NCBI GenBank assembly: GCA_029834535.1
Contig: JAQMWT010000014.1
Span: 1 to 64,000 of the forward strand
DNA: 64,000 bases
Reading direction: 5' to 3'
Source of the DNA: Chrysophaeum taylorii
Lineage: Eukaryota; Sar; Pelagophyceae; Pelagomonadales; Pelagomonadaceae
Under the pieces are notes generated by a model, which was not told the DNA's origin, ran no database searches, and worked only from the letters and a program-made list of their open reading frames with translations. This document shows, one piece after another, positions 1-40,862 of the stretch (positions are counted from its first letter, which is position 1; every line of letters begins with the position of its first letter). The position numbers were made by a program, and so were the translations under genes.

Positions 1-1689
1 GCAGCGTTCTCAAGTGGACGAAGACGAGCCGACGTGGAACCTGCAGGATTGGTGGACGAAAGCTCGGAATTTCTTGCTAAAGAAGCCACCAGAACAAACC
101 GCGCAGCTGCAGACTCAAAGCCGCAGCTGACACGGAACCGATCGCCGATGTTGATGAGGATCAGCAGGCGACGAATGAATTCACAGATGCATTCTGGAAA
201 GACGAAATGAATGATTTATGGGAGGGGTTGTTTGCTTCCAAGGATTACGAAGACCAGGATCCCCTACCAGCGTTTATTCCCTCTGAGATTGTCTTGGAGG
301 AAGAGCGGAAGCCGCCAGATAAAGAGGCTGCCGCGAGCGTTATGGCGAAGACGCCAACAACAGATAATACGAAAGCTCAAGCCGCGGTATCGATGCCCAA
401 CCCCGGAGATGAGCGATTCAGAGCCCGATGTGCTCACACTTCGTTGACGCCGCGAGATGGCAAGACGATCGAAGATGATTTGATTACCCTCAGTTGTTTA
501 GATACGGGTACTTTACGTTTATAGCCTGTCACATCTACAGGGATCGTGACGGACCGAAATTCTCGACGACCATCGGTGTCGATGGAATGGCAGATGTTTC
601 TTATATTTGCCGAGAAATGGTCAAAAAGTTGACCAAAGATCAGTTGATTTCGATGAAGGCGAACTTCCGATTAAGCGCAAGCTGTACGGATCAGGGTTGA
701 ATACGACGACGATCCATCGTTGGATCGCTTCGGTCGCTTTCGACGACTTCGCTGCCCCCATTGTTGCTATTGTAGCCGATACGAATATCTGTTCCTGTTG
801 GGAGGGCGCGATATACGAGTTTTAGGAGCCATCGTGGATTTTCCCCATGATCGGATCTGTTTTTGTCGAACCCAAGTCGTCTACGGGCGCAAGAAGATTA
901 AAGTTAAGGATGAACGAGTCGATGCACCAATCGTGACCTTTCGATCTATTTACGATCGAAATCCGATAACCGTACCGATTTACAATCATCAACACGATGC
1001 CTTCCGGCAGAGTCTCGACCTGGTCGAGACTCGAGTTTATGCTCGTTTGAGCACGATTAAAGATCTCCGAAGCCCGCCGCCGGAACGTAGGTAGCCATGG
1101 CTGCGGGGGCGCTACGACCAATTCTCCCCAGCTCCGGGAGAAGACGCGAGAAGTAATCGCTTATGCTGCGCGCACGCTTCAAATCGAGCCCGGTCGAACG
1201 CAATCTACCGGTTATTTTGTCGAAAGCCTATGGAAAAAGGACAGGTTTTCGTCGCTACGTTTGCTGAGAACGAGCAGTTGGGAGTTGTCGAAGGAATGTG
1301 TTCTTCTTGCGAAGAGCGCGACCGGTCCGCTGCTCGTGGCAGTCACTGCCACGGAAGAAGTGCCGACGATCGTCACTCAAGGCGAAGCCCTTGCGATTGG
1401 TGATATCGTTAGGTACGAAGATGAGTTGAACGTCTCTACGATCAACGAACTTACGAAAGAATGTGAAGAAGGATACGACAAGGGGAACCTTTCTTTCCAC
1501 CGTTTCTGTCGCTAGTCACTTGACGCGATGCAACGAATCTCCCCGCCGATGCTGCTGAGCACGGTGCAGAAGGACGCTATGACCGCTATGACGGACAAGT
1601 CCACCCTCAAACGACCTGGGCAGCGACGATTTCGCTCGAAGGTCAGAAAGATGAAAAGAAATGCCGCGAGATCACCGAAGCGGAGATCC

Positions 1690-2330
1690 GCCGCCGATAT
1701 GAAAAGGTTCAATGGCTTCCAATCACTTATCGCAAGGTGGTGATGCTGTTCAGTGGAGCCGGAGGCAGTACTTTAGGTCTCCAACGAGCCAACGAAACGT
1801 GTGGGACGTCGTTTCGAGTCGTGCTAGCACTCGATGCGTCGGACACCGCCAACCAGATCCACCACAAGAACTTTCCGAATATTCCTGTGGTGCAGCACAC
1901 TTGTGTGGTCGCTATGTTACAACCTTACGGTTGATCGAATCTTATTTACCCTACGCGGAATGGTCGTCGTCGATGTGTGTCGCGTCGCCACCCTGCGTAC
2001 ACTCCGCTCTGTGCAACTTGACTTCCAGAGATGTTGGGAAGGGAGTCACCGCTACCCACTGGACGATGAAATTATGCAAGATGGCTGGTTTCTTCATGTG
2101 GTTGATAGAGCAGGAGGCTTCGATTATTTCTTACGTTGCACGTTTGCACCCTTACGTGTACGTCGTCAATTTGTACGACATAACTCCCAGTTTGATGAGC
2201 TGTCGCGTGCGATTGTTGGTTTCGAGCCATCCGCTCCATTTGCGCGCAGTTCCAAAGACTTGCAAGAATATGCAGCAAAGTTCGCCGCCGCACTTGGCTA
2301 CGCCGACGAACGACATTTACTTCAGATGAA
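1690..2330 (+). mobile_element. Cytosine-5 DNA methyltransferase domain of element A
   Basis: This stretch encodes the motif I signature LFSGAGGSTLGLQRANE (AdoMet binding), the motif IV loop ASPPCV with the catalytic Pro-Cys pair, and a motif VIII-like Ser-Arg-x-Arg stretch. It is very similar to the methyltransferase part of element B. The family transfers a methyl group from S-adenosylmethionine to C5 of cytosine in DNA. Cytosine methyltransferases inside LTR retrotransposons have been reported from dinoflagellates and charophyte algae (from memory). The position between protease-like region and reverse transcriptase implies translation as part of the element polyprotein. Confidence 0.75.
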
Positions 2331-2951
2331 CAATTTAGGATCATCACGAGCCGCGACAGACGCAGCTTATACTGTTACGCGTGTCCCGCTTCGCGTAGGA
2401 CCGCACCGTTCCGATTACAGATCTCTGAATCTGGAAATGACTTTGGAGTTGCTGACGATGCCCCCTGGTTTTGATTGGGCCGGCTTCTCCAGGACGACCT
2501 CGTTGAAACACTTGGCGTCCGTCGTGCCACCTGACACGATGGCCTTATTAATGCTCGATCTGCACAACTCTGTGACCAAGGAATTTCACCTGAGCGGCGA
2601 AGCTTTGCCGTCAGCGTTGAGTCCTGCAGACCGACCGTTTGATTATTATTTGCAAATTGATGAAACCACCCTTCGTCACGTACAAGTTCCGCTGTTAAAC
2701 ACGCGCACACGTGTCGTAAGATGGGTGTCGAATGATGATCTTCAAGATCTCACCAAATGGAAACCTCCAGAGGTACCGTTGATTCCGCCTGCAACAGATG
2801 AGCCGGGGACGTCTCATGCTTCTTCTGCTCCCCCCCCCCGACAACCAAATTTAGACGTTCCGCCAGATCCTGAGCGAGATCGGGAACCGAAGATTAAGAG
2901 CGAGCCGAGTGTTCGTGTCAATGGCGAGAGGATCAACAAAAGCAACCGGAA

Positions 2952-5900
2952 GTGAAACTAAAATACGAGAAAAAGTTCGATGTGCCATGGAAAGATGCGC
3001 CGCGCGATGCCGAGGGTGCACCACTGCCGCAGACTCCTGAGCATGTCAAGGACAACGAAGCAATGAAAGTTCAAATTCCTACGAAGGAAGAAGTTGACAA
3101 GGTTGTGCAGGAGCTGGGAATTCCTGACAATCCGCACTTAGATGACGAGGCGAAACTGATGCTCCGTCACTGTGTGCAATATTCTTGGGCCTTTTTCGAC
3201 CCGATTATGAGACCTGTGGACTCGCCTCCTGTGTCTCTACGATTCAAAGACGCGAATCCGCGACCGATAAAGATGACGCCCTACCGATTGACGCCTGCGA
3301 AACTCGATTGTCTCCGCAAGCAGATCAGCGAGTGGTGCCGGGATGGAGTCATTCGTCCGGCCAACTCACCTTGGGGCTTTCCTGTGTTGATGCTTCCGAA
3401 GAAAGGAGCTGAGATTGGAACGTCAAACGCGTTCCGTGCTGCAGTTGACTTACGTCAGCTCAACGATCAATTGGTCAATGACAGTTGGCCAAACATTCGA
3501 CAAGATGATGCTTTAGCCTTTCTCGCGATGAGACGATGGCGGACATGCATTGATATTAGGTGGGAATACCACAACCTTCGTTTGGATCCGGCAGCGCAGG
3601 ACGCTGTCACGATGGTTAGCCCACTTGGCGCTCACAGTTTCTTGCGATTACCTCTAGGTGTGAAGACGGCCGGAGCTCTTTTCTGCAAGCAAATGGCGAG
3701 CGACCTTTCGAAATGGATGTATCAAGACTTGGTTGCGTTTGTTGACGATATTATGATGGGATCCGACGATCTTCATCGACATTTACAAGTTTTGATCGAA
3801 GTGATGTGTCATTTGGCACAGAGAGGGTACAGCGGTCGAACCGCGAAGTTCCACCTTCTCAAAGATGATATAGAATTTCTGGGACACATTTCTACCCCAG
3901 AAGGCTTGAAGTCGAATCCAAAGACGCTGGAAGCACTGCAGAAGATGCCGATTCCAGGTACTTTGCCGAATACTTCCCCGAAGACCCAGATACGCTCTTT
4001 CATCGGCATGAGTAATTACTGCCGGCGATATGTGAAGGGCTACTCGAAGATTGCGGGACCGTTGAGACGATTATGCCTCGAAGGTGTAAAGTTCGAGTGG
4101 ACGCCCGAGTGTCAGAAAGCTTGGGATACGATTATTGAAGCTTTGGTTGATTCCCGTGGAGTCTACCACGCCGATTATGATCTGCCTTTTCAGATCCGAT
4201 CCGATGCTTCCAAGGATGGACTTGGAGCATATCTCTTCCAAATTGTCGAAGTAAAGGACGATGCCGGAAGAGTGACTCGAGAAGAACGAGTAATTGAATA
4301 CTGGAGCCGAGCTGTGCCGAAGGAGATGCGGAATTATGAGCCCCGTCGGCTAGAGCTGCTGGCAGTTATACTTTCTCTAGAGCACTTTCGAGCCTACATC
4401 GAAGGGCACCGGACTGTTTTGGAGACCGATCACCGAAATTTGACGTTTTTACGTAAGGCGACGCACTCGTCTGGGCAGCTTGCTCGTTGGGCGATGCGCC
4501 TCGCCAATTTTGACCCTGAACTTGGTTACAAGCCGGGAAAGTCACCGGGAATGAGTATCCCTGACTGTCTCTCCCGCAACCCGATTGATCATGTCATCGA
4601 GACTGACGAGTTTGGAGAACCTTTGAACCACGCGTATTTAGTGTTCCAAGAGCTTCCCCGACCTGTTGATGACCGAGGAGTTCCCGTCTCTGGCTGCCAC
4701 TTCATAATGTCGTTTATTACGACCGAACTGCCGGAAGACAAAGACGAAGACCCTGAAAATGATCCGATGAAATTGGCTACGTCTCACGCTACGAGACAAC
4801 GTCGGAAGAACCGTGCACGTGATGAGCCACAGATCTTCAAGGACGCAGCCGCTTACAAAGATTATATCGATAAGATACCCGATAATATGACGCTCGCTGA
4901 GATCGCACGTGAGCAAGAATCTGATGCTACGTGCGAGGATATTCGCTACCGAATGGCCCAGGGTCAGGCGCCGCGACGTTCTCGAGCGAACGAACGATTC
5001 GAAGTCGTTAAAGATGTTCTTTACCGCATTTCTGCTGATTCGCACCCGATGATTGTTGCACCTGCTACGTTGCGCAAACGCATTATTCGACTCTATCATG
5101 ACACTCCGGTTAACGGTGGTCATATGGGACGTCACAGTACCGTCCAGGCTATCCAAGAACGATTTTGGTGGCCTCACATGTCGAACGAAGTTGGAGTCTT
5201 CATTGCTGAATGCTTAGTTTGTCAGAAAGCTCGTACGCCTGAGCCGAAACGAGCTGGACTCTTGCAGCAGCCCGTCTACGATGGTGATGGTGCTGTTCTT
5301 TGCATGGATTTATTTGGACCCTTGCCCAGCGCTGGTCCCGAGACGTATCTTCTAGTATTTTTTGATCCGTTCTCGCATTTCTTGATTCTGGATGTTTTGA
5401 ACGATAAGACCGCTGAGTCTGTCCTCGAGTCTTTTGTCATTAACATTCTCCTCAAGGGCTACTTGCCCCAGATGATTCGCACCGACAACGGTAAAGAGTT
5501 CGTGAACAAGTTGATGCGCAAGTTTTACCATCTCTTTAACACACGATACCAAACTACGATTCCCTATCATGCCCAGTCGAACCCGGCTGAGCGTGTCAAC
5601 CGATTTATCAAGGCCTTCCTCCGTGCTTGCCTTCAAGGCCGGAACATCACGGATTGGCCTGACTTTGCTCATTATATTGCGTTTTGCTATAACCGCAAGT
5701 TTATTCCAGGCACGCAGATTTCTCCCTTTATGCTACGCCTGAACCGTCAGCCGATGCTACCGACTGACTACACGCTCATGGATTATGATACACGATTATT
5801 GCCGAAGACTCGCTCTGATGCAGTCGCCGAGACTCGCGAACGATTGAAATATTATACAAAGATCGTCCGCGAGGCTCGTGATAAAGCTTTGAAGAAACAG

Positions 5901-6599
5901 CGATTGGCTTACAATGCTGATCATGTTGATGTTGAATACAAGGAAGGATCGCACGTTTTGCTCTACATCCCTTTCCTTCAGAACAAACTTCGACCGGAAT
6001 GGCGAGGGCCGTTTATTATCAAGGAACGCCTCTCCCCGGTCACCTATAGGATTGAGTCTCTCGACTCTCCGCCCGAAGAACGACGTGTTCATGTAAGTCA
6101 GATCACGCCGGTGATGGTACCTCCGATCGTTGATCAAACCATTCGCAAACCCGAAGAAACCTTCCGTGATGATTATCAGCACGGTAAGTTTGTTGTTTTC
6201 CGGATTCCTGACCGGAAGCGCTCTGATTGGCGCAAGAAGATTTATGTTGCTGAAGTTTACGAGCCTTACGATTACCAAAATGATCGTGTCGCTCTACATT
6301 TCTATTCCGATTTGGGTCCGAACGATGATGTCGCTTATTTCAAGCCGACCTCTCACCTTTCGCACCGCAAGCTCAAGCCCGAATTCAAGGACGTTGAAGG
6401 TCGAAGTTTCACCGACAAGTCCCGAATTTCCTCCAACACAACTCCTTGTGTCACGGATTTCGCTCCGCACGAGATTGACGTGTTGGTCCCCAAGTTTACT
6501 TTACGCAGTGGTCGAGTTCCTGAACCGATCATCACCCGCGTTTATCAGAAGATTCGTTCACGAGATGCTCGTAAGGCGAAGCCGCGCTCCTCGCGCTAG
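2952..6599 (+). mobile_element. Ty3/gypsy pol region of element A (RT, RNase H, integrase)
   Basis: One open frame of about 1215 codons. Reverse transcriptase motifs run from about 3.28 kb (YRLTPAKLDCLRKQI) to the FVDDIMMGSDD active site near 3.74 kb. RNase H follows, with ELLAVILSLEHF and TDHRNLTFL. The integrase zinc finger (HMGRHSTVQAIQERFWWPHM, then a Cys pair) lies near 5.1-5.25 kb and the catalytic core with DLFGPLP, RTDNGKEF and AERVNRF at 5.3-5.65 kb. A GPY/F-type module (LRPEWRGPFIIKERL) sits near 6.0 kb. A C-terminal extension of about 150 residues rich in charged and aromatic residues is shared with element B. The domain order RT-RNase H-integrase is diagnostic of Ty3/gypsy. Confidence 0.93.
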
Positions 6600-6639
6600 C
6601 ACCTCGCTGGGACAGCTCGAATTCTTACCAGGGGAGTCC

Positions 6640-6944
6640 TGTGGCGGCAACTCCCGCCTCCTAAGGCTTACCCCTCTTCTAGGGCCCCCCTTATCAGGGG
6701 CACCCGACTCCGTTCCGATGATGTCAGAGTTTTCTCTGACATCATCTTCCTTTTCCGTGACATGTGTCACCCTGATTTCTGATTTCGATTATCCTTGATC
6801 ATAAAGCAACAGCCGATCCTCAAGTTGAGAGGACCAAGCACAGAAGTTGTTTGTGGTCGCGTGGCGGGAGAACGGCCATCCTCGTCCAGTGATCCCACCA
6901 AGGGCACGGACGCGATCGGCGAGCCAGGATTCGAAGGCACGCCA
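6640..6944 (+). repeat. Probable 3' LTR of element A
   Basis: It begins TGTGGCGGCAACTCC directly after a purine-rich tract (ACCAGGGGAGTCC). The same junction is found at the 3' LTR of element B. The proposed end is the CA in a GCACGCCA context, by analogy with the GCCGCCA end of the B LTR. The start is well supported and the end is tentative because the partner LTR is outside the window. Confidence 0.6.
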
Positions 6945-6980
6945 GGTAGCCCCCAAAATTCTCCTTACGCCACAACCCCT

Positions 6981-7770
6981 CCCCTAGGACGACGGGCACT
7001 GCAGCACCAGAATGGCTCTACAAGGTAGGCTGCAGTTTGGCAGGGAAATTGGGGTTCGAGGGGGGTGCGTGGCGACGCTGAATGGGTCGCAAGGAATGTG
7101 GCGGCCTCATGGTGGAATGCGGCGTCTCCGAGGTCCATGATGTAGTCGCGGGGGTTCGGTTCTCATCGGGAGCGGGCTCTCATCTTCCTCATCCTCCTCG
7201 AGAGTGGGCTCGTCGACGGAGTCTGGCTCGTTGGCCTCGCCATGTTCACCGGGGGCGGTTCGTTGTCGTCATGGTGACCGTCCCAACCATATGTAGCAAA
7301 AACTGTATGGACAATCAGGCAGATCCGGAGAAGCCACCCATCTTTTTGCTGCTAGAGTCATCATCGCCGTCTTGAGGACAGGACGCGTACAACACCTCGT
7401 CGAGTTTTGCGGCTCGGAGTCGCGCGTATGGCTTAGGCACAGTGATTTCCCTGCAGCCGCGCCCCCTCTGGTCCGATTCATTAACGCCTATGCCCGCGAA
7501 GAGCGCGAGGCTCGCAGAGGCGCTCCATTCCGGCCGAGTCGCCGGCACCCAGTCCGTGGCCGTCCGTAGGTCTGTATCTCTGCTGGCCACCTGGGCGCCC
7601 GGCAAGCATTTAAAGCACCTTCTAGCGTGCGCGCGCGATGGTCAGAGCGCGAAACTTGCGCGCTGGGAGGTCGCAGACCCCCCACGGGCACAAAACTTTA
7701 GCGCTGGGGGGTGGCGCTGAGCAAAACGCTGTTCTCGTGCCCCCCCCCTCGGATGCGGCTGTCGCCAAGC
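6981..7770 (+). repeat. Partial copy of the 865-bp TIR element
   Basis: Aligns base for base with 36713-37436 over most of its length, in the same orientation. It keeps the right terminal sequence (complement of GCTTGGCGACAGCCGC) at 7755-7770 but lacks the left terminus. An insert of about 90 bp near 7275-7365 is absent from the other copy. The sequence divergence is moderate, which points to an old family. Confidence 0.75.
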
Positions 7771-8751
7771 AGACATTTTCTTCTTGGCGGCGGCGCGACA
7801 GGGTTGCGGTTCAAGCGACTGAGTGCTCGGTATGTTGTACGTAGTCGCAGGCTCTCCCGAAGACACGAACTCTTGCACCTGCCAGTGAAGGACAATCCTT
7901 TAACGCTCCGACTCATGAATGAACGAGGAGATCGCGCGTTGTAAACGCGCGCAGGCTATTTTTCAATCCTGTGAAGCGCGCCTCGCCGACAGCAGACAAA
8001 GTCGCACTCTGAAGCCGGCGATAGCCGCGGACTTTCATAGAGATATTAGTATAGGCTTGAAGACTCCGGCAGGACCTCACAGCGTGTGCCCATTGCCGCT
8101 TGGCTTCAGAATTCGGCGCGGGTGCTGGACAAATCAAAGGCAGCGAGTCCAGTGGGTCTTCCTAAGCGAATCGAGTCAAACGCCGCTGACGGCCAGTGCG
8201 ATGGCATCATCAGAGAGAGTCGAAGTGATGGGCCTGAGAACTATCGCCGCTTTATGAAAACCGAGTTGTTTGAAACAAAGTAAGCCCTCGAGTCTCCAGC
8301 GGGAGTATCTTATCACAGGAGCAGTAGTCACGACCGCCTCTGCAAGCGCAGGCTCGGCGACGTCGACGATCCGCGATGTTCAAAACGTTTTTCTCCCGGA
8401 ACGGAACGAACAAACATCTCCGCGTGCGTGCAGTGAGCGACACCTTGAATCTGCGAGCCAATCGACCCTTTGTCTCTCGTTCGGAGTCAGCGCCGAACGA
8501 CCAATCTCTGGCGATTTCGGCGCCCGCGGACGGCAGGCGTCCTCGTTTCAGACCAGACCCTCGAGTCATCACGACCCTAAAGGCCAGACAAACCAGAGGT
8601 CTACCAACGCACACAATGACGAGAGAGGCGGTGGTCGGTCACAGTTCGAAAACTTAAGTTCGTTGGTCAAACACCCCCATCACCACCGGCAAACATGGCA
8701 ACCGGGGTCACCTTCTGCCGCATTGATCGCAGTGACTAGTTCGAATATAGG

Positions 8752-8892
8752 TTGAGACACGAGGGATGCCTGGAAGGCGGTATCCCGTTCAGGGGTTGAA
8801 GACGTGAGGGATACCGGAAAGACAGGGTCATCGCCGAGCTGCTAGGCAGGCGAAGAGAGAACGGGCCCCGCCAATAACGTATGTGCGGCGAA
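8752..8892 (+). repeat. Dispersed GC-rich repeat, copy 1
   Basis: Contains GGTCATCGCCGAG, then GGCAGGCGAAGAGAG, then ACGGGCCCCGCC, and ends near ACGTATG. The same ordered blocks occur at 21118-21290 and 54300-54425. There is no recognisable tRNA-type promoter box and no identified family. Confidence 0.6.
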
Positions 8893-9171
8893 GTGTCATG
8901 TCCCGCGGGCCGCATGGGTGGGCGGCGAGGTGGCCGAGGGCGGTTCACGAGGGCACAGCCGTGGGTTATCAGCCGCGTGGAAACACAAGCGCAGTGAATG
9001 AAGCCACCTGCAAGGTGTTGAGCGAATTGCGTTCTCGCGCTTGGAACCGCGGGTGGCGCTCAAGGCGGAAACTGGTCCTTCACCCGCCCACCGTCCTTGA
9101 ATAAGTCGGGCAGGAACGCGCGGGGTGGCGCTGAAGGACACTAAGTTCACTTCCAGCAGGACGAAACTTCG

Positions 9172-9191
9172 GTGAAGTGAAGTGAAGTGAA
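9172..9191 (+). repeat. GTGAA pentanucleotide microsatellite
   Basis: Four tandem GTGAA units within gene-free DNA. Confidence 0.8.
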
Positions 9192-9649
9192 CCAAATCCA
9201 GCGAACATTGTGAAGTGAGCCCAGTGAATTCCCAAATTACTCTTGGGTGTTGTTGTAGTGATCCGTTGTTGTTGCTATGGCTAGGGTCCAAGGATGGATG
9301 ACGTCATTCACTTTATCCCCTAACACTCCCCCCAAACCTCCGCCTAAATCTAACAATATATGCCGCGTTTGGCTAAATTGACGTTTGACGGGTCGGATAA
9401 GAAAACGAGACTAGCCCGCGCCGCAACGACGGGTCCTACAACGCGCGGGCTTTTTCCTTTTTTTGCGTGAGGGGACGAAAGGATGCCGACTTCACTATGG
9501 GGACTAGTTCCATCGCGACGATCTCGCGGCGTGGCGGCACATACTGCTTGAGTACAAATGAACATAGCTCAGCGATCCGTTGAGTATGTCTTAGTACAAA
9601 CTGAAACATAGTTAACGCCTCGTACGAACTTTCTTATCCGATCCTACTA

Positions 9650-9968
9650 TGGCGGCACAGAAAAACCTTCCCGACCCCCGGGTGACAAAGGGGGTACTCA
9701 CCGACTCGTCCTAGACCTCACTGAACGAGGAAAACACGGACTCGGGTCGGGTATGCTCGCCACACACCTTGCTCACGCTCACCAAGCCTCTCAACAAGAT
9801 GGAGAGATGGTATATGATAGCAAGGAAACTACAAGAATACAGCAAGAATGCTTCTCACAAAAGAGAGGTATGATGTCACTAAAAATATTGGGAAAGGTGT
9901 CCCGTTGAACGGGTATCAAGCCTCGAGAGAGGGGGGTTAAGCCTTAGCGGTCAGGAGTTGCCGCCACA
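9650..9968 (-). repeat. 3' LTR of element B
   Basis: About 319 bp, TG...CA bounded, direct repeat of 19348-19675. The inner side shows the purine-rich CCAGGGGAGTCC tract next to TGTGGCGG (on the complement), as in element A. Confidence 0.9.
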
Positions 9969-9998
9969 GGACTCCCCTGGTGAGAACACGAGCTGCCC

Positions 9999-12900
9999 TC
10001 AGCGAGTCCGGCGAGAAGCACGAGCCTTGGCTGAATGAGCATCTCGAGAGCGAATCTTCTTGTAGGCACGTTCAACGACAGGTTCAGGAACGCGTCCACC
10101 ACGCAAAGTGAATTTAGGAATCAACACATCGATCTCATGCGGGGCGAAGTCGGTGACACAAGGAGTGGTACTGTTGTTGACCTTGGTCTTGTCGGTGAAA
10201 CTGCGACCGTCGACGCCCTTGTATTCCGGCTTAAGCTTGCGAGTAGAGAGATGTGAAGTAGGCTTGTAATAAGAAACCTTGTCATGGGGACCGAGATCAG
10301 CATAGAAATGCAGAGCGACTCGATCATTCACAAAATCATAGGGTTCATAAACTTGAGCGACATAAATCTTCTTTCGCCAATCGGACCGTTTATTATCCGG
10401 AATCCGAAAGATAACGAACTTACCATGCTTGTAATCATCCCGAAAGGTCTCCTTGGGCTTGGGCACAGCTCGATCGACCACTGGAGAAACCATCACAGGG
10501 GTAATCTGACTAACATGAACACAACGGCGTTCGGGAGGATAATCAAGAGACTCAATCCTGTAAGTGACCGGGGACAAGCGTTCCAAAATAACGAATGGAC
10601 CGCGCCATTCCGGTCGAAGCTTGTTCTGAAGAAAAGGGATGTAGAGCAGAACATGTGAACCTTCTTCATACTCCACATCAACATGGTCCGCATTATAGGC
10701 GAGACGTTGTTTACGAAGAGCCTTCTCACGAGCTTCGTTCACCGTAGCGGTATAGAACTTCAGCCTCTCGCGAGTCTCTGCCACAACATCGGAGCGAGTT
10801 TTCGGCAGGCGGCGGACATCAAGATCCATGATCGTGTAATCGGTTGGCAATAAAGGCTGCCGGTTAAGACGAAGCATGAAAGGTGAGATCTGAGTCCCCG
10901 GAATAAATTTACGATTGTAACAGAAAGCAATGTACTCCGCGAATTCGGGCCATTCCGTGATCTTGCGGTTTTGAAGGCACGCACGGAGGAAAGCCTTGAT
11001 AAAGCGGTTGACCCTTTCCGCAGGATTAGCCTGAGCATGATACGGAATCGTGGTACTATACCGAACATTGAAAAGATGACAAAACTCTTCCATCAACTTG
11101 TTGACGAACTCTTTCCCATTGTCGGTACGAATCCTCTGAGGTAGATAACCTTTGAGTAATATATTCGCGACAAAAGACTCGAGGATTGACTCAGCAGTCT
11201 TATGGTGTAGTACGTCAAGAATCAAGAAATGAGAAAATGGATCAAAAGACGATGAGATATGTCTCGGGACCAGCACTGGGCAAAGGTCCAAACAAATCCA
11301 TACAAAGGACGACACAATCACCATCATACACCGGTTGCTGAAGCAGACCTGCTCTCTTTGGTTCAGGCGTACGAGCTTTCTTGCACACTATGCAACCAGC
11401 AATGTAAGCACCCACCTCATTAGACATATGGGGCCACCAAAAACGTTCAAGTATCGACTGCACTGTACTTTGACGACCCATATGACCACCATTGAGAGGT
11501 GTGTCATGGTACAATCGGATGATGCGCGTCCGTAAAGTTCGGGGTGCGACTATCATCGGGTGCAAGTCGGGTGCGGCACGGTAGAGAACTCCTTTCGCCA
11601 CTTGATAGCGATAATTGGCTCCGTACCGACGAAGAGAATGGCCCTGAGCCATGCGATAACGAATGTCCTCGCAAGTAGCATCAGTGATCTGCTCTTTGGC
11701 TATCTCTTCCAAAGTCAAATTATCCGGAATCTTGTCGATGTACTCTTGGTAATCATCGGCATCACGGAAAATACTAGGCTGGGTCTGAAGTCGTTGCTTC
11801 TGACGTTGTTTCGTAGCATGAGACGTGACCAATTGCATCGGATCATCGAGGTCTTCTTCCTCTTCCTCCACAGGCAACTCAGTCGTAACAAACGACAGAA
11901 TGACATGGCACCCAGGTAAAGGTACTCCTTCATCATCAACAGAACGAGGAAGTTCTTGGCACACTAGATACGCGTGGTTCAAGGGTTCACCAAACTCGTC
12001 CGTCTCGATGACATGATCTATAGGATTGCGAGAGAGACAGTCAGGGATGCTCATTCCCGGCGACTTCCCTGGCTTGTAACCCAATTCAGGATCAAAATTG
12101 GCGAGCCGCATCGCCCATCGAGCCAACTGCCCAGACGAGTGCTTCGCCTTTCGTAAAAACGTCAAGTTGCGATGATCTGTTTCAAGGATCGTCTTGTGAC
12201 CTTCAATATAAGAGCGGAAATGCTCAAGAGAGAGAATAACTGCCAGTAGCTCTAGCCGGCGAGGCTCATAGTTCCGCATCTCTTTCGGCACAGCTCGGCT
12301 CCAATACTCAATTACTCGTTCCTCTCGTGTCACCTTGCCGGTTTCGTCCTTGATTTCCACGAGCTGAAAAAGATACGCACCCAGACCATCCTTGGAAGCA
12401 TCCGAGCGGATCTGAAAAGGAAGATCGTAGTCAGGATGATAAACTCCACGAGAATCCACCAAAGCTTCGATGATCGTGTCCCATGCCTTTGGCACTCAGG
12501 CGTCCACTCAAACTTAACGCCTTCAAGACACAATCGCCTAAGCGGCTCCACAATCTTCGAATAATTCTTCACATATCGGCGGCAATAGTTGCTCATGCCA
12601 ATGAAAGATCGAATCTGGGTCTTCGGGGACGTATTGGCAACGTACCGGGAATCGGCATCTGCTGCAACGCTTCTAACGTCTTGGGATTCGGCTTCAAGCC
12701 TTCCGGAGTCGAAATATGTCCCAAAAACTCGATTTCATCCTTGAGGAGGTGGAACTTCGAAGTTCGTCCACTATATCCTCGCTGTGCTAAATGGCACAAC
12801 ACTTCAATCAAAACTTGTAAATGTCGATGGAGTTCATCCGATCCCATCATAATATCGTCGACAAACGCGACCAAGTCCTTATACATCCATGTGGACAAAT

Positions 12901-14320
12901 CGCTAGCCATCTGCTTACAAAGAGAGCTCCTGCTGTTTTAACTCCTAGAGGCAAGCGCAAGAAACTGTGGGCTCCAAGTGGACTAACCATCGTAACAGCG
13001 TCCTGAGCAGCGGCGTCCAAACGTAAGTTATGATAACCCCATCGAATATCAATGCACGTCCGCCAAGGCGGGCAGCCAAGCCATCATCATCGAATATTAT
13101 TCGGCCAACTGCATTGACTTGCGTCATCATTGAGCTGCAAGTCAACTGCAGCACGCCGAAGCATTCGACGTCCCGCCTTGGCTTCTTAGGCAGCATCAGT
13201 ACGGACGTCCCGGAGAGTTCGCCGGTCGGATGACTCCATCGCGACACCACTCAGTGATCTGCTTTCTGAGACACTCGAGCTTTGCTGGCGTCAACCTATA
13301 AGGCGTCATCTTGATCGGTCGTGGGTTTGCGTCTTTAAAGCGTAGAGAAACCGGTGGCGAGTCCACGGGTCTCATAATCGGATCAAAGAAAGCCCACGCG
13401 TATTGCACGCAATGGCTCAACATCATCTTCGCATCATCATCCAGATGCGGGTTGTCGGGAATTCCTAGATCTCGAACAACCTTCTCAACTTCTTCCTTCG
13501 TCGGAATTACGACTTTCATCGCATCATTGTCCTTGACGTGCTCGGGAATCTGCGGTAACGGTACACCGTCCGCATCGCGCGGCGCATCCTTCCATGGCAC
13601 ATCGAACTTTTCTTCGTATTTGAACCTCACCTCAGGGTGGCTCTTATTGATCTTTTCACCTTTGACGCGCACATTCGGCTCGCTCCTTACTTTCGGCTCC
13701 TGTTCAGGTTCAGGATCCGGCGGAACGTCCACTTTTGATTGTCGGGGGGCAGCAGAAAAAGCATGAGCCGTCCCCGGCGCATCTGTTGGAAGCGGAAGCA
13801 TAGGAACTTCTGGCGGTTCCCATTTAGTGGGATCCTGGAGATCATCCTTTGACACCCACTTAACGACACGAGTACGCGTATTTAACAGCGGAATCTCTAC
13901 GTGACGAAAGGTGGTGTCGGAGATTCGCAAATACTGCTCAAAGGATCGATCTGTCGGGCTCAACGCGGTCGGCAGGACTTCACCACTTTGGCGGAAACCT
14001 CTGGTCACGGAGTTGTGCAGATCGACTGCTAAAATCGCAAGAGTATCTGGAGGGACGACAGACGCTAAATGTTTGAACGAATCTGTCTTAGACAAGCTAG
14101 CCCAATCATGATCCACCGGCATCGTGAGCAACTCGGCCGTCATCTTGAGAGTCAAAGGCTGAGTGTCCGAGCGATGCGGTCCCAAACGAAGAGGAACCCG
14201 CGTAACGGTGTAAGCCGTATCTGTTGCTTCTCGGGACGAGCCAAGATTATTCAGCTGGAGAAGGTGGCGTTCATGAGCATAACCTAAAGCTGCAGCAAAT
14301 TTTGTTGCATGTTCACACAT
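9999..14320 (-). mobile_element. Ty3/gypsy pol region of element B
   Basis: Encodes, on the complement, the same domain series as element A pol: RT with the FVDDIMMGSDELH active site, RNase H with ELLAVILSLEHF, an integrase zinc finger (HMGRQSTVQSILERFWWPHM), the integrase core (RTDNGKEF, AERVNRF) and the GPY/F-type module (LRPEWRGPFVILERL). It is closely similar to element A pol over its whole length and is broken in a few places. Confidence 0.9.
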
Positions 14321-16179
14321 GTCTTCGGAGCCTCTTGCAAGTGCAGTGGGTGACTGGAAACCAACAATCGCACGCGAGAGCTCATCAGAGTAGGTGTGAT
14401 ATCATGAAAATTGACGACGTACACGTAAGGGTGTAAGCGCGCTATATACGAAATAATGGACGCCTCCTGTTCAATCAGCCACATCATGAAGCCAGCCATC
14501 TTGCACAACTTCATCGTCCAGTTAGTGGCCGTAACACCCTTGCCAACATCTCTGGATGTCAAGTTGCAGAGTGCGGAATGAACGCAGGGTGGAGACGCTA
14601 TACACATCGACGATGACCATTCCGCTTCAGGCAAATAAGCCTTGATCAATCGGAGGGTCGAGTCATATCGTCCGCAGAGCGTGTGCTGGACCACAGGTAT
14701 CTTCGGAAAATTCTTCTGATGAACCTTGTTGGCAGCTGTTGAAGAGTCAAGAGCAAGGACGACTCGAAACGACGTCCCGCACAACTCGTTCGCTCGTTGC
14801 AGTCCTAAAGTACTTCCTCCGGCGCCGCTAAAGAGCATCACAACCTTGCGATACGTGATCGGCACCCAGTGGACCTTTTCAAACCTTCGGCGAATCTCGC
14901 ATTCTGTAACTTCTCGGCATTTCTTTTCCTCCTCGTCAGTTCGTCGGTCGAAATCGTCGTTATCGAGCGATTCTTGACGAGAACTCTTCTTCTTATCGGC
15001 AGAAGGAGACGCCTTCTGCACTGAGCTCAAAAGCATCAGTTCGGGAGCCGCATTGCCTTGAGTAAGATGGCTTGCGACCGAAACAGGGAATGAGAGGTTA
15101 GCCTTGTTAGATTCGGCTTCACCATCATTCGTTAAATCGTCGACCGTCTCTGCATTCAGCTCGTCATCAAAACGAACAATATCGCCCAAAGCAAGGACTT
15201 CACCTTGAGTGATCACGGTCGGCACATCCTGGGTAGAGGATATCGCCACTCGAGCTGCGAGCTTATCATGATCCTCAGGAAAAGAACACATTCCTTCGAC
15301 TACGCCGAGTTGCTCGTACCCAGAAGACGTAGCAACGAAAACTTGCCCAGTTTCCACGGGCTCTGAAAGAGCGACTGGCACGCAGTAGGTGCGCCCAGGC
15401 TCGACCTTCATCGTGCGCGCAGCATAGGCTTTCACTTCATAAGCATCGCTGTTCGAACTTTGAGAAGGCGTAACTGGAGGAACTCCCCAAGTCGTCGAAG
15501 CTCCCGCTCGTTTCGGCGGTGGACGCTGGAGGTCTTCAATCTTGCACAAGCGAGCGTAGACTCGGTTCTCAACTGTGCTCAGGCTTTGTTGCATCGCATG
15601 GTGCTGTTGTCCATAAACCTGAACTACCACGGGATTGCTCTCGTCATAAGTTGTTCTGAACGTCAAAATCGGAGAATCTACTCGTCGATCCTGCACCTTT
15701 AACTTCTTGCGCCCGTAAGCGACTTGTGTGCGTAGAAACGCAATGCGATTCCGCGGGTAATCCACTATGGCTCCAAACACCCGAATATCGCGCGCTCCCA
15801 GCAAAAATAGATGATTAGTATCGGCCACAATAGCAACAACTGGAACGGCAACGTCGTCCGCAAGCGCAATCCGCAATGCAACCCATTGGTGGATAGTCGT
15901 TTTGTTCAATCCTGACCCATACAAAGTGCGCTCGACTGGAAGATCGCCCCGGTCAAGGATGATGCTATCCTTTTCCAGTTTTTCAACCATCCCACGACAA
16001 ATATAAGAGACATCAGCCATTCCATCCACGCCTAAAGTCGTTGCAAACTTCGGCCCGTCTCGTCGTCTATAAATATGACCCACTATAAACGTAAGGGTAC
16101 CAGGGTCCAGGCAACCGATGGTGATGAGGTCTTGCTCGATCCTTTCCCCATCGCTCGGCGACAGTGCATGTGATGACAT
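14284..16179 (-). mobile_element. Retropepsin-like plus cytosine-5 methyltransferase region of element B
   Basis: The upstream third resembles an aspartic protease fold: a strand-turn VDGMADVSYI and a later FLLGARDIRVFGAIVD segment, with weak sequence identity to known retropepsins. The downstream third is a methyltransferase with motif I (LFSGAGGSTLGLQRANE), motif IV (ASPPCVHS) and a motif VIII-like SSRVRL. The whole stretch reads as one open frame. Methyltransferase fused to protease upstream of RT is the unusual trait of this lineage. It could methylate element DNA or host chromatin, but that is inference. Confidence 0.75.
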
Positions 16180-18913
16180 CGTATCTCCGGTTTCGCATCG
16201 CCCGGAATCTGCATCGTCACCGCTGCTATATCTGGCGTACTACATCTCGCCGCTGAATCTATATTGGCGCTCGCCGCTTCGGCTGCTTCTTCATTCCCCA
16301 GTTTCGCTGACAACAAATTCTGACACTTCTCAATCGGAGGCACATATATCTCCTCCTTTATCTCTTCTGGTAATCGTTTCTCGTCCAACAAATCGGACAT
16401 TCCCGTCAACTTCTCCTCCATCGGCGCCACTGTGGTCTGTTCTGCTGCGACCAAAACTGTATCGGCTAAAACATCGGCTAAAACGGTCTCGGGGGGCCCC
16501 GTAGGAAAAGAAGACGTCGTCCTCGACGTCAACTCACAAGGTCTAACGTCATCATCGTAAACTGCCCTGCAAGACATGCACATTGACGAATGGGGGGACA
16601 CTGGAACCTGCGGCATGGGCTCGTCGGTCTCCGAATCTGAGTCTTCCCAATAGTGCGGAGAATCCCAAGTAGCATCTGACATTGCTTCCACATACGATGT
16701 AGAAGGCCACCGAACGATCCGAGCGTTGGTGGTATGTTGCTCCTGTTGCAAACGATGGCTGCTCGTCACAGCGACATCGGCAACATCATCGGAGACTCGG
16801 GCAGGGCGCGCCGTCGGGTAAAAGACAACCCCCGACATTGGCGGCGCGTCGCATAAAGATTGGAACGCGAAAGATGCGCTCGAATGTCCCGAACTATCCT
16901 GATATCTGCCTCCGTCATACTCGTCATCGTAATGTCGATGACGTCGGCGCCAGCGCGAACTGCGACTAGAGCTCCGGTGACGGCAAGGACTCGGGCTGTC
17001 TTGAGCAGTATGGGCTTTTCGATCAGGGCTCTGGCTTCGATGTCGGCGCGACGATCGTCTAGAAGGTGATCGTCCGTCTCGCTGTCGTGTAGAAAACGAC
17101 GTAGTATCCTTGATGCTTCTGACCTCGCTCACCATGGTCGCCATTGTGGTTCCAAGATCGGTGAGGGCCGTTTGAATTTCATTAGAAGGCTCCGATCCGT
17201 GCGTGGCGTTCGCATTAGATGCATCATCACGCTTTGCCCAATCGGACCGCGATATGGGCTGCTTCTTCTGCTTACGAATTCGCTTCCACATTGCACAGTA
17301 GTAACGATCCGGATCGCGGTTGCAAACTACGCGATTTCCGTGTTCATCTTCATCATGGGTGGTCCAGAAGAACCCACAGTGCGGGCACGTTCTCTTGCCC
17401 CACAAAAAGGATCTCGTAAAATCAGCGGATCCGTATTCCCAGACGGTTTATCCGCATCTTGCTTGGCTTGTTGATCGGAGGCCATAGCTCGAACTCCCCG
17501 CCCTCGCGGCGGTTTATTCGATTTCGGATTAGGTGGGCCTTGGTCCTTCTCCTCCTCCATCAACTTTCGTAAGTCGTTCTCGAGCCGCGTAATAAGCGCT
17601 ACCATCGACTTAAAAGTCACGTAACTATCAGGATGTCCGCTCCTCATAGTCCGCACACGGGTCCTCAACTCCTTGGACGTCAATCCACTGATAAGCTGGT
17701 CGAGGATATCGACATCATCCATCGTGCGGCTGGACACGGAACAAAACTCCAAGGCTTCAGATTGGAATCTGGTACAATACGTTTGGACGTGCCGCTCCCC
17801 AGACTTCTTCGGAACTGAAGCCTGGGTGACCTTCCGCAGCTTGTCAAGCAGCTCCTGCTGCGTGCGCGGAGGTCGGCAAGTCGATCTAAAATAATCAACA
17901 ATCTTGTCGCAATACGTCTTGTTAAGACGACGGATACGACGAACCGAGACCCCATGCTCTTCATCGTCAGTATCTAATTTCAAGTAAAACGACGGACCGT
18001 GTGGTAGCTCATCGCAGAGCTCCTCGTATTTCTGCAAGTGTTCCTCAAAAACGGGTGCAACGGTGTCCCGTAGATGCACAGGTAGTAAGTAACGTTATTT
18101 CTCGACCGAGTAATGGTCATCTGCTAAAAAAAGTATGCATCATCGCCGCCGAATCCAAATTGAATTGCCGTTGGTCTCGGCCGTCGATGACGAGTTTGAA
18201 GTTATCAGGCTTCAAACTGGAAGTGGGTCGATGGGATCGGTTCAAGTTGCCCTTTTCGAAGGCGTTGGCAACCGTTTGCGATATTCCCCGCGATGATTCC
18301 CGTAAAGTTTTCGTACTTTCATTCTCAATGTCCGCCCTACCCTCATTCTCCGTATCGACTTGGGGCGGAGGTTCATTCCCGGTTTCAGTGTTCCTTTCCG
18401 GTTCAGGCGGCCTCACGGGCGTTTCCGGTTCGGGTCGACTCACGGGTCGTTCACGGCTACTCTCCCGACGCGTACGTTCTGCTAACAATTCATCTCGTTC
18501 ACGACGAAATCGTTCAACCTCTTCACGTAGGGTCTTCGAGGTCTCCATCTCTTGCTGTAATGCATCATTGAGCATATCAACTTCTCGTCGAGCCGCTTCC
18601 TCTTTCGCTTCAGCCCTTTCACGAGCAAAAAGCTCAGCTAATCGTTCATTTTCGCGACGTCTCCGCTCGAGGTCTTCACGAAGTCGACTTCGGGCTGCAG
18701 ATCTGCGCTCAATAGTGTAACACGCTCGCCACGATCCGGAGTCGTTGGACTCAACGGCGAAAAAATGGCGGCATCCGGAGGCACATCAGGGGGCACGTCA
18801 GCAACGTCGACTGCCTCGGCCTCTCTTAATTCACCTTCCTCGCGGCCTATCTCAGGGGCGGCGGGAAGAACTGGAGGAGATTCTTCCTCACGCACGTCTG
18901 CGTTTATCTCCAT
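16083..18913 (-). mobile_element. gag region of element B
   Basis: The first ATG at 18913 opens an acidic, proline-rich N-terminus, followed by a charged helical stretch rich in Glu/Arg. Next comes a gag-core-like segment near 17.5-18.0 kb, with the YCTRFQSEALEFCS and LISGLTSKELRTRVRTM pattern typical of retrotransposon gag. Further on is a Cys/His cluster (CPHCGFFWTTHDEDEHGNRV, then Cys) and a Ser/Arg-rich tail. Gag function is inferred from position and these patterns. Confidence 0.7.
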
Positions 18914-19347
18914 ACCGTATTAAATATCGATCAAGAACCTCGAAACACGTCCGGATCCGATCACTCGAAGTAATTCACGTTGATTCCAACAACGCTATCT
19001 GTCGCTGTAAAAACAGCACTCACGGAATTCCAATCCGCTGGCAATTCAAAAAGGCCCGTGGGTAGCGATCCCACTCGCTAAACAGCTTCCACCGTTCAGC
19101 TATACCAAAATCAATTCCCGGGAGAATGCGCTGCGATTTCCAACTCGCACGCGTGTTCGTCGTCACTCGGATCGTACGAACACAAACAACGTTCGCGTAT
19201 ATTCTCAACGCAAACCGGTCCAATGGAACTCCGCGTGCTTGATCCGGGCGCACGTACAAACCCCGGACCACGTAATACAACACGTACGGCAGCACTCGCT
19301 CGTCGGCGACCGATGTAATCGCACGATCTCGTGTACTCCACCACGTA

Positions 19348-19675
19348 TGGCGGCACAGAAAAAAAAAACCAACCTTCCCGACCCCCGGGACCGGGTGACA
19401 GACAAAGGGGGTACTCACCGACTCGTCCTAGACCTCACTGAACGAGGAACACGCGGACGCGGGGTCGGGCATGCTCGCCACACACCTTGCTCACGCTCAC
19501 CAAGCCTCTCAACAAGATGGAGAGATGGTATATGATAGCAAGGAAACTACAAGAATACAGCAAGAATGCTTCTCACAAAAGAGAGGTATGATGTCACTAA
19601 AAAGAAAGATCGGGAAAGGTGTCACGCCTCGAGAGAGGGGGGGGTAAGCCTTAGCGGTCAGGAGTTGCCGCCACA
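19348..19675 (-). repeat. 5' LTR of element B
   Basis: About 328 bp. On the complement it runs from TGTGGCGGCAACTCC to TGTGCCGCCA. A possible primer-binding site TGGTGGAGTACACGAG starts 4 bases inside the element; the tRNA was not identified. The first bases of this LTR are read as the end of the ADCK-like coding sequence. Confidence 0.9.
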
Positions 19676-21087
19676 GTTGCAACGAGGAGGGCCTTGGCTA
19701 AGAAGGGGGCGGCCTCGGAGAGCAAGTCCAAATCGGGGTCGAGGTGCCTGCCGATGCCCTCGACGATGGCAACGGCGAGGACCGTGTTGACGAAGCGGGT
19801 CTCGAGCTTGACTTTGTGGACGTAGCAGAGGCGGAGGACGTCGGCAATTAGAGTGGCGACCTTGATCTTCCCGAGGGTGAGGCCACTGGATGTCGCGCGA
19901 CGGACGAGGCGGGAGACGTCAGAAACAAAGGCGTCGCGGTCTTCGCATTCGTGGCTCGAGGCGCGGTCCAGCAAAAGCTCGCCGGCGCGCCGGCCATCTC
20001 TTCTGACGACGGCAGAGAAGAGATCCAAAAAGTTGCGATGGTCCCTATTGTTAAGCTCGACGACGAGGCCCGCGTCGAGCAGCACGAGGTCGAAGTCGCC
20101 CTCGTCGAGGTCACCCGTGGGGCGGATCAGGAGATTCCCGGCATGCATGTCGCCGTGCGCGAGATTGTCGAGGAACAACATCTTGAGGAGGCAGCGGAGG
20201 CCGCGCCGCGCGACGTGGCGGCGCGCCGACGTCGACAAGCTGTCGACGTCGTCGAGGATCCGGCTCAGGGGCTCGCCCGGCTCGAAGGACTCGACCAACA
20301 CATCCTCGTCGGCTAGGATGGGCCGCGGCACGACGATACCTGGAGCCGCATTGGCGCGGAGCCGGTGCAGCGCATTCGCCTCGAGGCGCATCGACGCCGA
20401 GCGCCGGAGACTATCGCCAAACTGCTCGACAGCTCCCTTGGGGTCGGGCCAGCGCGCCCACGGCTGCAGGATCCCGGCCAGCGCCTCGAGGGCGCGCAGA
20501 TCCGTCTCGAGGGCGCTCTTGAATCCCGGGTGTACCACTTTGACGGCGACGGCCCGGCCCCGGAACCGGCCGCGATGGACCTGCGCGGCGACGCCCGACC
20601 CGACCGGCGCGCGCTCGATCTCGATCTCCTCGCCGAGCGCGCCGACGGCAGCGACCGACGCGTGCCACGAGTGCGTCCGCGCCCGCCGCTGCAGGCCCTC
20701 GAGCCGTCGGCACGCCGTCCGCGGAAAAAGGTCCGGCCGGCACGCCGCCCACTGCCCGAGCTTTGTCATAACCGGCCCGCACGCCTGCACCGCCCACAAC
20801 GCGTGCCGCCACCACGCCTCGGCGAACGGCCCGCCGAGCAACAAAAGAGGCGACAGCAGCACGGCCGGCGCCAGCACCAGACCCCATACCGCGACCCGCC
20901 ACACCACCGACGCCGACGACGGCACCAACACTGATGGCGACTCGACCTCCCACTCGCGCGCCTGCGAAGGGACTGATTCCGTCTTGCTGCTTGCTGGCCA
21001 CCGCGCCAAGGTCACCACCAAACTACCCCGAACGACCACGATCTGCTGCCGTCGCGCAAATGCGCTCACGCATACGCGCCGCCACAT
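19651..21087 (-). CDS. ABC1/ADCK-family atypical kinase (ADCK2-like)
   Basis: 478 residues. Atypical protein kinases of the ABC1/UbiB/ADCK family act in mitochondria and plastids, often in quinone synthesis or lipid homeostasis. Seen: an Arg-rich N-terminus like an organelle transit peptide (MWRRVCVSAFARRQQ), a hydrophobic segment at about 63-87, the family KxGQ motif (TKLGQWAACRPDLFP, K109-Q112), the nucleotide loop GSGVAAQVH (163-171), the VAIK lysine (AVKVV, K183), the catalytic loop HGDMHAGN (311-318) and the metal-binding DAG (338-340). KLGQWA followed by RPDLFP is closest to ADCK2 proteins as I recall them. I chose the ATG at 21087; the frame stays open upstream but only through a dispersed repeat and a CGT microsatellite. 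The final codons (about VAATPDR and the stop) come from the element B LTR, so the native C-terminus was replaced. Confidence 0.88.
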   Translation of the reverse strand: MWRRVCVSAFARRQQIVVVRGSLVVTLARWPASSKTESVPSQAREWEVESPSVLVPSSASVVWRVAVWGLVLAPAVLLSPLLLLGGPFAEAWWRHALWAVQACGPVMTKLGQWAACRPDLFPRTACRRLEGLQRRARTHSWHASVAAVGALGEEIEIERAPVGSGVAAQVHRGRFRGRAVAVKVVHPGFKSALETDLRALEALAGILQPWARWPDPKGAVEQFGDSLRRSASMRLEANALHRLRANAAPGIVVPRPILADEDVLVESFEPGEPLSRILDDVDSLSTSARRHVARRGLRCLLKMLFLDNLAHGDMHAGNLLIRPTGDLDEGDFDLVLLDAGLVVELNNRDHRNFLDLFSAVVRRDGRRAGELLLDRASSHECEDRDAFVSDVSRLVRRATSSGLTLGKIKVATLIADVLRLCYVHKVKLETRFVNTVLAVAIVEGIGRHLDPDLDLLSEAAPFLAKALLVATVAATPDR

Positions 21088-21117
21088 CGTTGATTGAGTC
21101 AAGGTTTTTAAGGTCGG

Positions 21118-21290
21118 GGGTGTAGCTAAGAGGGGAGGGGGTGCTTGAAGAAGTTGTCCGAGGGGACGTCCTGAGAGATGTGCCTGAAAGGCGTGGATGG
21201 GTGGTACGCGAGTCGGGGTCGTCGCCGAGCCGCGGGGCCGACGAAGAGAGGGCGGGCCCCGCTCGTAGGGCTTACGTATGCTGCCGCCGG
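21118..21290 (+). repeat. Dispersed GC-rich repeat, copy 2
   Basis: Begins near CTAAGAGGGGAGGGGG and continues ATGTGCCTGAAAGGCG, GTCGGGGTCGTCGCCGAG, CGAAGAGAGGGCGGGCCCCG and ACGTATG. It matches 54265-54425 and 8752-8892. It lies immediately upstream of the ADCK-like start codon, so it probably forms part of that gene's 5' region. Confidence 0.65.
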
Positions 21291-21440
21291 ACTTAACGTG
21301 CAATAAATAATAAGTGGGATGATCGGGGCTTAGCAGCCCGGGTATGTGATTAGCCAACCAAACACCCAATCCAAAAGCCAACAACACACACCCTTTTGTT
21401 CGAATGTAATTATTTGGGTCTTCACGTGTATCATGATTAA

Positions 21441-21472
<32 letters not shown>
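21441..21472 (+). repeat. CGT trinucleotide microsatellite
   Basis: About ten uninterrupted CGT units between the ADCK-like gene and the metallo-beta-lactamase-fold gene. Confidence 0.9.
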
Positions 21473-21473
<1 letters not shown>

Positions 21474-21542
21474 GGGGGGGTTGTTTGTTCTCGCCGGTGA
21501 CGACGATCACCGCGTCGCTCGGGAGGAAGGGCCCTCAGCGAG

Positions 21543-27860: not shown

Positions 27861-28608
27861 CCCGCGTTGTTTGGGCCCCAAAAAACTAATAGTACCAGGG
27901 AGCCAAGGCGGACTAGCTCTTCTCAAAAAGAGCGGAAGTGACGTCGTGCGCCAAGAGGAGGAGGAGGAGGAGGAGATTGGCGGAGCGGAGACGCGTGTCG
28001 TGAGCACTCGGCCCCGAACAGTTTGTCGGCGCAGTCGATCAAACCTACAATCGGCTTTGTGGTGGCACGCCCACCAATTATCATATCATTCTCGTTGCAT
28101 CCGAACGCACAGCTGCACGTTCTTGTTAGTGGTGTCGCAGCCGTGGCGGAGAGCATCATCGTCTTCACCGCGAGCAACTCGCGCGCGTTATGATGATCTT
28201 CTTCGCCACCACCACCGAACGGCTCGCATATATTTTTTGACTTTCTGCGACTCAATAATGCGCGTTGAGAGCCTCAGCAGCAGCAGCAGCAGCAGAAGAA
28301 ATGACGTCTAGATGAGCCACAATAGCAATGTTCGTTGTTCGTGGCTGCGGTTTTGCGAGCTTATTCGTATTATCATCTCGACGTTGACAAAAGGCAGCAG
28401 CACAGTTCACCAAACGTTTTGGCCACCTGCTCCAATCTCACAACAAAAGTGCTGGGAGTAGTAGACGCAGGATATAACGGTACACCGCAGTGCTGGACGA
28501 CGACGACGCCGACACCCGTCGTCTTTGTGCCGCCCGAGACTGCGGACACCTTCGAAGGGGCGTCGTCCCTAGTAGGGACGATGGGCGGCAAGGATCGGAT
28601 CGGCTGGT
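27861..28608. other. Upstream region of the formin gene
   Basis: Contains a GAG trinucleotide run (about 27954-27974) and a CAG run (about 28270-28293). An open frame 28335-28661 on + precedes and overlaps the formin start in another frame; nothing in it is recognised. No clear promoter element. Confidence 0.5.
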
Positions 28609-40672: not shown

Positions 40673-40768
40673 TGTTACGAATGGTATGAGGCGTTAGACT
40701 AGCGATAAGAGAAAGACGTAAGGATACTGGATACGTGGTGCAGGGGTAAGTGTCATAGCTTCTTCACA
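40673..40768 (-). repeat. 3' LTR of the copia element (96 bp)
   Basis: TGTTACGAATGG to TTCTTCACA on +, identical to 46104-46199. It is unusually short for a copia LTR. Confidence 0.95.
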
Positions 40769-40862
40769 CAGGTGCTGGAAAAGAAGGAAAAGGAAAAAGG
40801 GGTAAGTGAGGTCTTCACACAGGTGCTGGAAAAGAAGGAAAAGGAAAAAGGGGTAAGTGAGA
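40761..40862 (+). repeat. Two tandem 51-bp units at the copia 3' end
   Basis: Units 40761-40811 and 40812-40862 differ only at the last base. Each begins TCTTCACA, the terminal 8 bases of the LTR, and continues with a purine-rich block on + (pyrimidine-rich on the element's coding strand). Confidence 0.9.

Follow-up and report, generated by a model that had tools for sequence, protein, structure and literature searches.

A C5-methyltransferase-type domain crossed by a shared -1 frame change in two Ty3/gypsy-type retrotransposons of Chrysophaeum taylorii

Retrotransposons carrying cytosine-5 (C5) DNA methyltransferases, enzymes of the kind that many hosts use for silencing, have been described from a few algal lineages (PMC5890265). 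KnitGypsy-Dnmt3 of Klebsormidium nitens is a gypsy-type long terminal repeat (LTR) retrotransposon with a Dnmt3-family domain in its Pol open reading frame (ORF), the methyltransferase having a Ka/Ks below 0.2 (PMC5890265); PMC12344493 names LTR Copia and DIRS where PMC5890265 has Gypsy. Methylation of complementary DNA (cDNA) has been proposed for other methyltransferase-bearing elements (PMC5890265). In bacteria, the C5 enzyme M.AquI is divided into a part with motifs I-VIII and some of the variable region and a part with the distal variable region and motifs IX-X (PMC3404938). Here we analyze a 64,000-nucleotide stretch of the pelagophyte Chrysophaeum taylorii (assembly GCA_029834535.1, contig JAQMWT010000014.1, positions 1 to 64,000; hereafter the window), in which two LTR retrotransposons face each other, A on the plus strand and B on the minus strand, both broken by frame changes and stops. 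Each carries a putative C5 methyltransferase domain, and the same -1 frame change splits that domain in both copies.

The initial annotation had reported motif I and the PPC motif of a C5 methyltransferase in A and B, between a protease-like region and reverse transcriptase (RT). Both motifs, FSGAGGSTLGL and SPPC, were found there in both copies and are backed by profiles; the elements have a gypsy-type order by Pfam, with the protease recognized by eye. In B, motif I and PPC share one ORF (14284-16239), whereas in A a gap of one base near 1900, seen against B, puts them into different frames. The -1 frame change, which goes beyond that annotation and is new here, leaves motifs I-VIII upstream of the switch and motifs IX-X in the pol frame. 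The corresponding features are as follows.

14296..14850, minus strand: first half of the methyltransferase in B, ORF1 frame (motif I 14800-14832; motif IV, SPPC, 14584-14595)
14458-14475 and 14362-14379, minus strand: VI-like EQE and VIII-like RVR of B, assigned by eye
13990..14296, minus strand: second half of the methyltransferase in B, -1 (pol) frame (IX-like 14117-14155; X-like 14042-14065)
1653..2284, plus strand: first half of the methyltransferase in A (motif I 1749-1781; SPPC 1985-1996; EQE 2105-2122; RVR 2201-2218)
2285..2600, plus strand: second half of the methyltransferase in A, -1 frame (IX-like 2425-2463; X-like 2515-2538)
14296..14302, minus strand: slippery-type heptamer A AAT TTG of B in ORF1 phase, proposed -1 slip site, coinciding with the switch

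We assign the domain to the C5-cytosine-methyltransferase type with high confidence, its middle third being unrecognized by profiles. When the halves of B are fused across the frame change (joined), they score 26.0 bits against PF00145 (E 7.7e-6), above the Pfam cut-off of 22 bits, while the unjoined ORF1 of B reaches 19.5 bits and stays below it. Failure to match any C5 profile had been named in advance as grounds for abandoning the assignment; joined B passes PF00145, and joined A comes within 0.1 bit. Two PHROG DNA-methyltransferase families are matched by both copies (E 7.9e-8 and 1.9e-7). A comparison profile of 18 rows, made of phage C5 methyltransferases and M.HhaI, matches the first half across motifs I-IV with a score of 77 (E 3.7e-11), the maximum in 200 column shuffles being 26.4. 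In both copies FSGAGG (motif I) and SPPC (motif IV) fall in the corresponding columns of the phage, HhaI and DNMT2 sequences, and the order and spacing of motif I and PPC are those of C5 methyltransferases. The second half, read in the -1 frame as a profile of A and B, gives a weaker match than the first, with a score of 24.9 against the motif IX-X columns; none of 60 shuffles exceeded 17.4, none of 300 exceeded 20.3 and none of 38 windows of A pol exceeded 20.4. Other matches are weak: 18.1 bits to NCBIfam dcm (cut-off 100.65), DNMT2 as the best solved structure (E 0.13), and a best phage-genome record at E 0.03.

The position of the frame change was read from the substitutions that separate A and B. 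As far as B 14302 these fall at third codon positions in the ORF1 frame; beyond it they fall at third positions in the -1 frame. A substitution-phase model with one switch has a log-likelihood (lnL) of -756, compared with -939, -981 and -1165 for single frames, and places the switch at B 14302, with 14299-14308 within 2 lnL. The alignment has no gap at this point, nor anywhere from 14680 to about 13790; the sole gap column in 13780-14760 is that of A near 1900. Third-position bias on both sides of the switch implies that both frames were translated during the divergence of A and B, and our confidence that coding runs across the switch in both frames is fairly high. In B, the only in-phase XXXYYYZ heptamer (Y = A or T) among 650 ORF1 positions starts at 14302, and across nine ORFs of A and B such heptamers occupy 6 of 4447 positions; the heptamer was picked after the switch was known, so this rarity is a guide and not a test. 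A final G is unusual in a slippery heptamer. From the switch as far as the IX-like motif, the pol frame has no in-frame ATG common to both copies, which makes slipping the simplest route for expressing pol and the complete domain; an internal start for the pol frame is disfavored on the same ground. In full-text open-licence literature, covered mostly as titles and abstract openings, KnitGypsy-Dnmt3 was the closest element and no retroelement methyltransferase divided by a frameshift was found; a comparable element may have been described before.

Both halves of the domain were under purifying selection, with constraint near the polymerase level and weaker in the second half than in the first. 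The ratio of nonsynonymous to synonymous rates (dN/dS) between A and B is 0.055 for the first half, alongside 0.033 for RT, 0.029 for RNase H and 0.026 for integrase; the protease-like region has 0.144 and the linker between methyltransferase and RT 0.222. For the second half in the -1 frame, the proportions of nonsynonymous and synonymous differences are 0.167 (pN) and 0.777 (pS, saturated), and reading either half in the wrong frame gives ratios of 1.5 to 4.8. These values, with the occurrence of the domain in both copies, support the view, already put forward in the initial annotation, that the domain predates the split between A and B and was retained; the low ratios show that selection retained it. 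The converse outcome, a chance insertion confined to one copy, was not what was found.

The explanation that we favor, with confidence somewhat above even for the reading as a whole, is that a Ty3/gypsy-type lineage took up a phage- or DNMT2-like C5-methyltransferase domain between its protease-like region and RT. Ribosomes would slip by -1 at the switch, so that a shorter product would stop just past motif VIII and the longer product alone would hold the complete domain, along with RT and integrase. The enzyme would then be carried with Pol in the particle and would methylate newly made cDNA. Its benefit, among the least certain parts of the proposal, might be escape from recognition as foreign DNA or an influence on chromatin at the landing site. 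The narrower and more novel combination, a methyltransferase completed solely by -1 frameshifting and taken up from a phage/DNMT2-like source independently of the charophyte and dinoflagellate DNMT3 uptakes, we hold tentatively, at somewhat less than even confidence. If it is correct, the common product would comprise motifs I-VIII and the rarer Pol product would add IX-X, so that methylation capacity would depend on how much RT and integrase is made and would be delivered along with the cDNA. The switch and the domain offer a defined place and a defined domain for testing whether a retroelement methylates its own cDNA. The catalytic activity, target and purpose of the predicted enzyme are the least certain parts.

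Several observations weigh against this explanation. Joined A reaches 21.9 bits against PF00145, just under the cut-off. The middle third (joined columns 118-211, from after PPC to the switch) has no profile similarity (score 15.1), which leaves motifs VI and VIII to be assigned by eye; as so assigned, motif VI is EQE instead of ENV, motif VIII is S-RVR without the usual Gln, and motif X is without Gly-Asn. When the second halves are aligned singly, A goes to the IX-X columns (25.6) while B scores 16.9 and aligns elsewhere. An AlphaFold2 model of the first half, built on an alignment of three rows from the window and without phage enzymes, whose inclusion would have been circular, had a mean predicted local distance difference test score (pLDDT) of 33.3 and a predicted template modeling score (pTM) of 0.25 and was not used. 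At the switch, A reads A AGT TCG, which is not a slippery heptamer, and RNA structure downstream is not unusual in four pseudoknot-free folds of 70 and 100 nucleotides (z -0.72 and +0.83 in B, -0.06 and -0.25 in A). The window holds only two copies, and both are broken. A methylation footprint at CpG is also lacking. Observed/expected CpG is 1.25 over A, 1.19 over B and 1.21 over the window, showing no depletion over the elements, and C/T changes between A and B are not concentrated at CpG: C-to-T differences from B to A amount to 0.121 at CG, 0.103 at CA, 0.146 at CC and 0.279 at CT, and those from A to B to 0.187, 0.145, 0.184 and 0.256. The two LTRs of B are lower in CpG, at 0.83 and 0.74 (~320 bases each). 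The earlier suggestion that the element could mark its own DNA is not supported so far; an enzyme with another target, or one acting on RNA, would leave no CpG mark. As a separate observation, sense-strand C/T differences between A and B (519) outnumber A/G differences (359) over 1-6700 and 9900-16300.

Some of the same points suit a relic of a C5 methyltransferase that lost methylation and kept another role, such as binding S-adenosylmethionine or nucleic acid within the polyprotein. Such a relic would account for an unrecognizable middle third, for the departures seen by eye at motifs VI, VIII and X and for the missing CpG footprint, but the first half has the low dN/dS given above, and the Cys of PPC, the Glu of EQE and the RVR, compared by eye, are identical in A and B; we regard it as unlikely, though with an appreciable share of the probability. 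Very improbable, in our judgment, is that the methyltransferase match is due to chance or to a misread Rossmann-like domain, since four independent profile tests agree and motif I and PPC are rightly ordered and spaced, even if the recognized stretch is short (57-80 residues) and the NCBIfam and PDB matches are weak.

Two further alternatives concern the frame change itself, and we consider each of them improbable to the same degree. The common frame change could be an unprogrammed mutation inherited from a dead ancestor, in keeping with the other frame changes and stops in both copies and with the absence of a slippery heptamer in A; this is hard to reconcile with the third-position bias, which follows the correct frame both before and after the switch where synonymous divergence is saturated. 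Alternatively, the halves might be made separately, as a two-piece enzyme resembling M.AquI, and not as one frameshifted chain. The split between motifs I-VIII and IX-X is that of M.AquI, and fragments of several C5 enzymes complement one another (PMC3404938), but both copies lack a common in-frame ATG upstream of the IX-like motif, and the pol frame also requires a route of expression, which -1 slipping would provide.

Judged by domain order, A and B are one lineage of Ty3/gypsy-type LTR retrotransposons. In A pol the Pfam order is RVT_1, RT_RNaseH, H2C2 and rve, and RT, RNase H and integrase are also found in the pieces of B; RT and RNase H ahead of integrase constitute the gypsy-type order. 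A 1231-6680 and B 15356-9926 are 76.4% identical over 5509 columns. Direct LTRs are present in B (295 matches, 14 mismatches and 33 gap columns between the 5' and 3' copies), while the 5' end of A falls outside the window. The parts of the two elements are listed below.

9648..19675, minus strand: element B, Ty3/gypsy-type LTR retrotransposon with an LTR at each end
19346..19675, minus strand: 5' LTR of B (TGTGGCGGC...GCCGCCATA), from alignment to the 3' LTR
9648..9968, minus strand: 3' LTR of B, from alignment to the 5' LTR
16083..18785, minus strand: open frames on the gag side of B (18117-18785, 17327-18094 and 16083-17447), in differing frames
15784..16029, minus strand: protease-like region of B, with VDGMADVSYI (16000-16029), by eye
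9999..13384, minus strand: part of B encoding RT, RNase H and integrase, interrupted by frame changes (ORFs 13196-14401, 11242-12495 and 9999-11387)
1..6977, plus strand: element A, truncated by the window start, end approximate
578..815, plus strand: protease-like region of A, decayed, with the same VDGMADVSYI motif (578-607), by eye
2898..6599, plus strand: A pol ORF of 1233 residues, with RT (FVDD within 3720-3770), RNase H, and integrase zinc finger and core
6640..6977, plus strand: 3' LTR of A, start in common with the B LTR, end by eye

Pfam returned no match for gag in the gag-side open frames of B and none for protease in either copy, so the protease is recognized by eye alone; retropepsins have D[ST]G at the position where A and B have VDGMADVSYI. 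No in-phase heptamer occurs in the two overlaps examined between gag-side frames of B, and slipping leaves those frame changes unexplained. Inspection of the flanks of B by eye revealed no target-site duplication. An ABC1-kinase ORF (19651-21534, minus strand) has its last residues and stop inside the 5' LTR of B, which places B at the 3' end of that gene. A dispersed repeat starts where the 3' LTR of A stops (6977-7770) and recurs at 36707-37436, with 84-87% identity.

The window has a GC content of 0.558 and eukaryotic content (formin, STT3, ABC1 kinase and a Copia polyprotein), and it contains no tRNA genes. The Copia element (40671-46199, minus strand) has an open 1708-residue ORF, with an in-frame tandem repeat at 42743-42943, and its 98-base terminal repeats match each other at 100% identity. 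A PH-formin is encoded in a single ORF (28576-32958, plus strand) with a tandem-repeat region at 30780-31256. Other dispersed-repeat pieces, 79-88% identical, pair 34924-36194 with 59530-58834, 57016-57353 and 54858-54653.

As to its origin, the domain fits phage/DNMT2-type enzymes and not DNMT3. The hhalign scores are 49.2 for phage CL131, 47.8 for L018 and 47.1 for human DNMT2, followed by 30.1, 29.8, 22.9 for M.HhaI and 13.5 for DNMT3A, the lowest of seven templates, a set without DNMT1, 4, 5, 6 and giant-virus enzymes and with a DNMT3A query that lacks the first residues of motif I. Motif IV is SPPC here and SPCN in DNMT3A. Scans for relatives confirmed 0 of 9, 0 of 31, 0 of 1 and 0 of 3 candidate stretches for parts of A or B in viral contigs, and 0 of 26 for 120 residues of A pol in genome contigs; because a hit depends on an almost exact match of eight residues and the collections searched are non-eukaryotic, these null results say little. 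A word search of PMC5348765 gave no mention of methyltransferase.

KnitGypsy-Dnmt3 shares with A and B the gypsy domain composition, a C5 methyltransferase in the Pol region and purifying selection. Its enzyme, however, is of the Dnmt3 family, whereas A and B have FSGAGG and SPPC in a domain that crosses a -1 frame change, and KnitGypsy has DIRS-like repeats (PMC5890265) where B has ordinary direct LTRs. Given the phage/DNMT2-like motifs and scores, a source separate from that of the charophyte gypsy element is likely; the separate acquisition raised in the initial annotation is thus probable, not proven. SymbioLINE-Dnmt and SymbioDIRS-Dnmt3 of Symbiodinium are likewise retrotransposons with selected C5 methyltransferases (PMC5890265), but they are long interspersed nuclear (LINE) and DIRS elements and not LTR/gypsy ones; the SymbioLINE enzymes form an orphan, non-Dnmt3 lineage, and SymbioLINEs show a CG depletion (PMC5890265) that A and B do not. 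M.AquI, a bacterial two-subunit C5 methyltransferase, has the same division point (PMC3404938), although there the parts are two genes and in A and B they are two overlapping frames of one retroelement. The trans-frame dUTPase of betaretroviruses is also a retroelement accessory enzyme encoded across a -1 frameshift (PMC4531489), located at the gag/pro junction, in contrast to a methyltransferase before RT. With an enzyme of a different type in an ordinary LTR retrotransposon, and with a frame change that would couple production of the complete enzyme to Pol, A and B would show that methyltransferases have been taken up repeatedly, from different sources.

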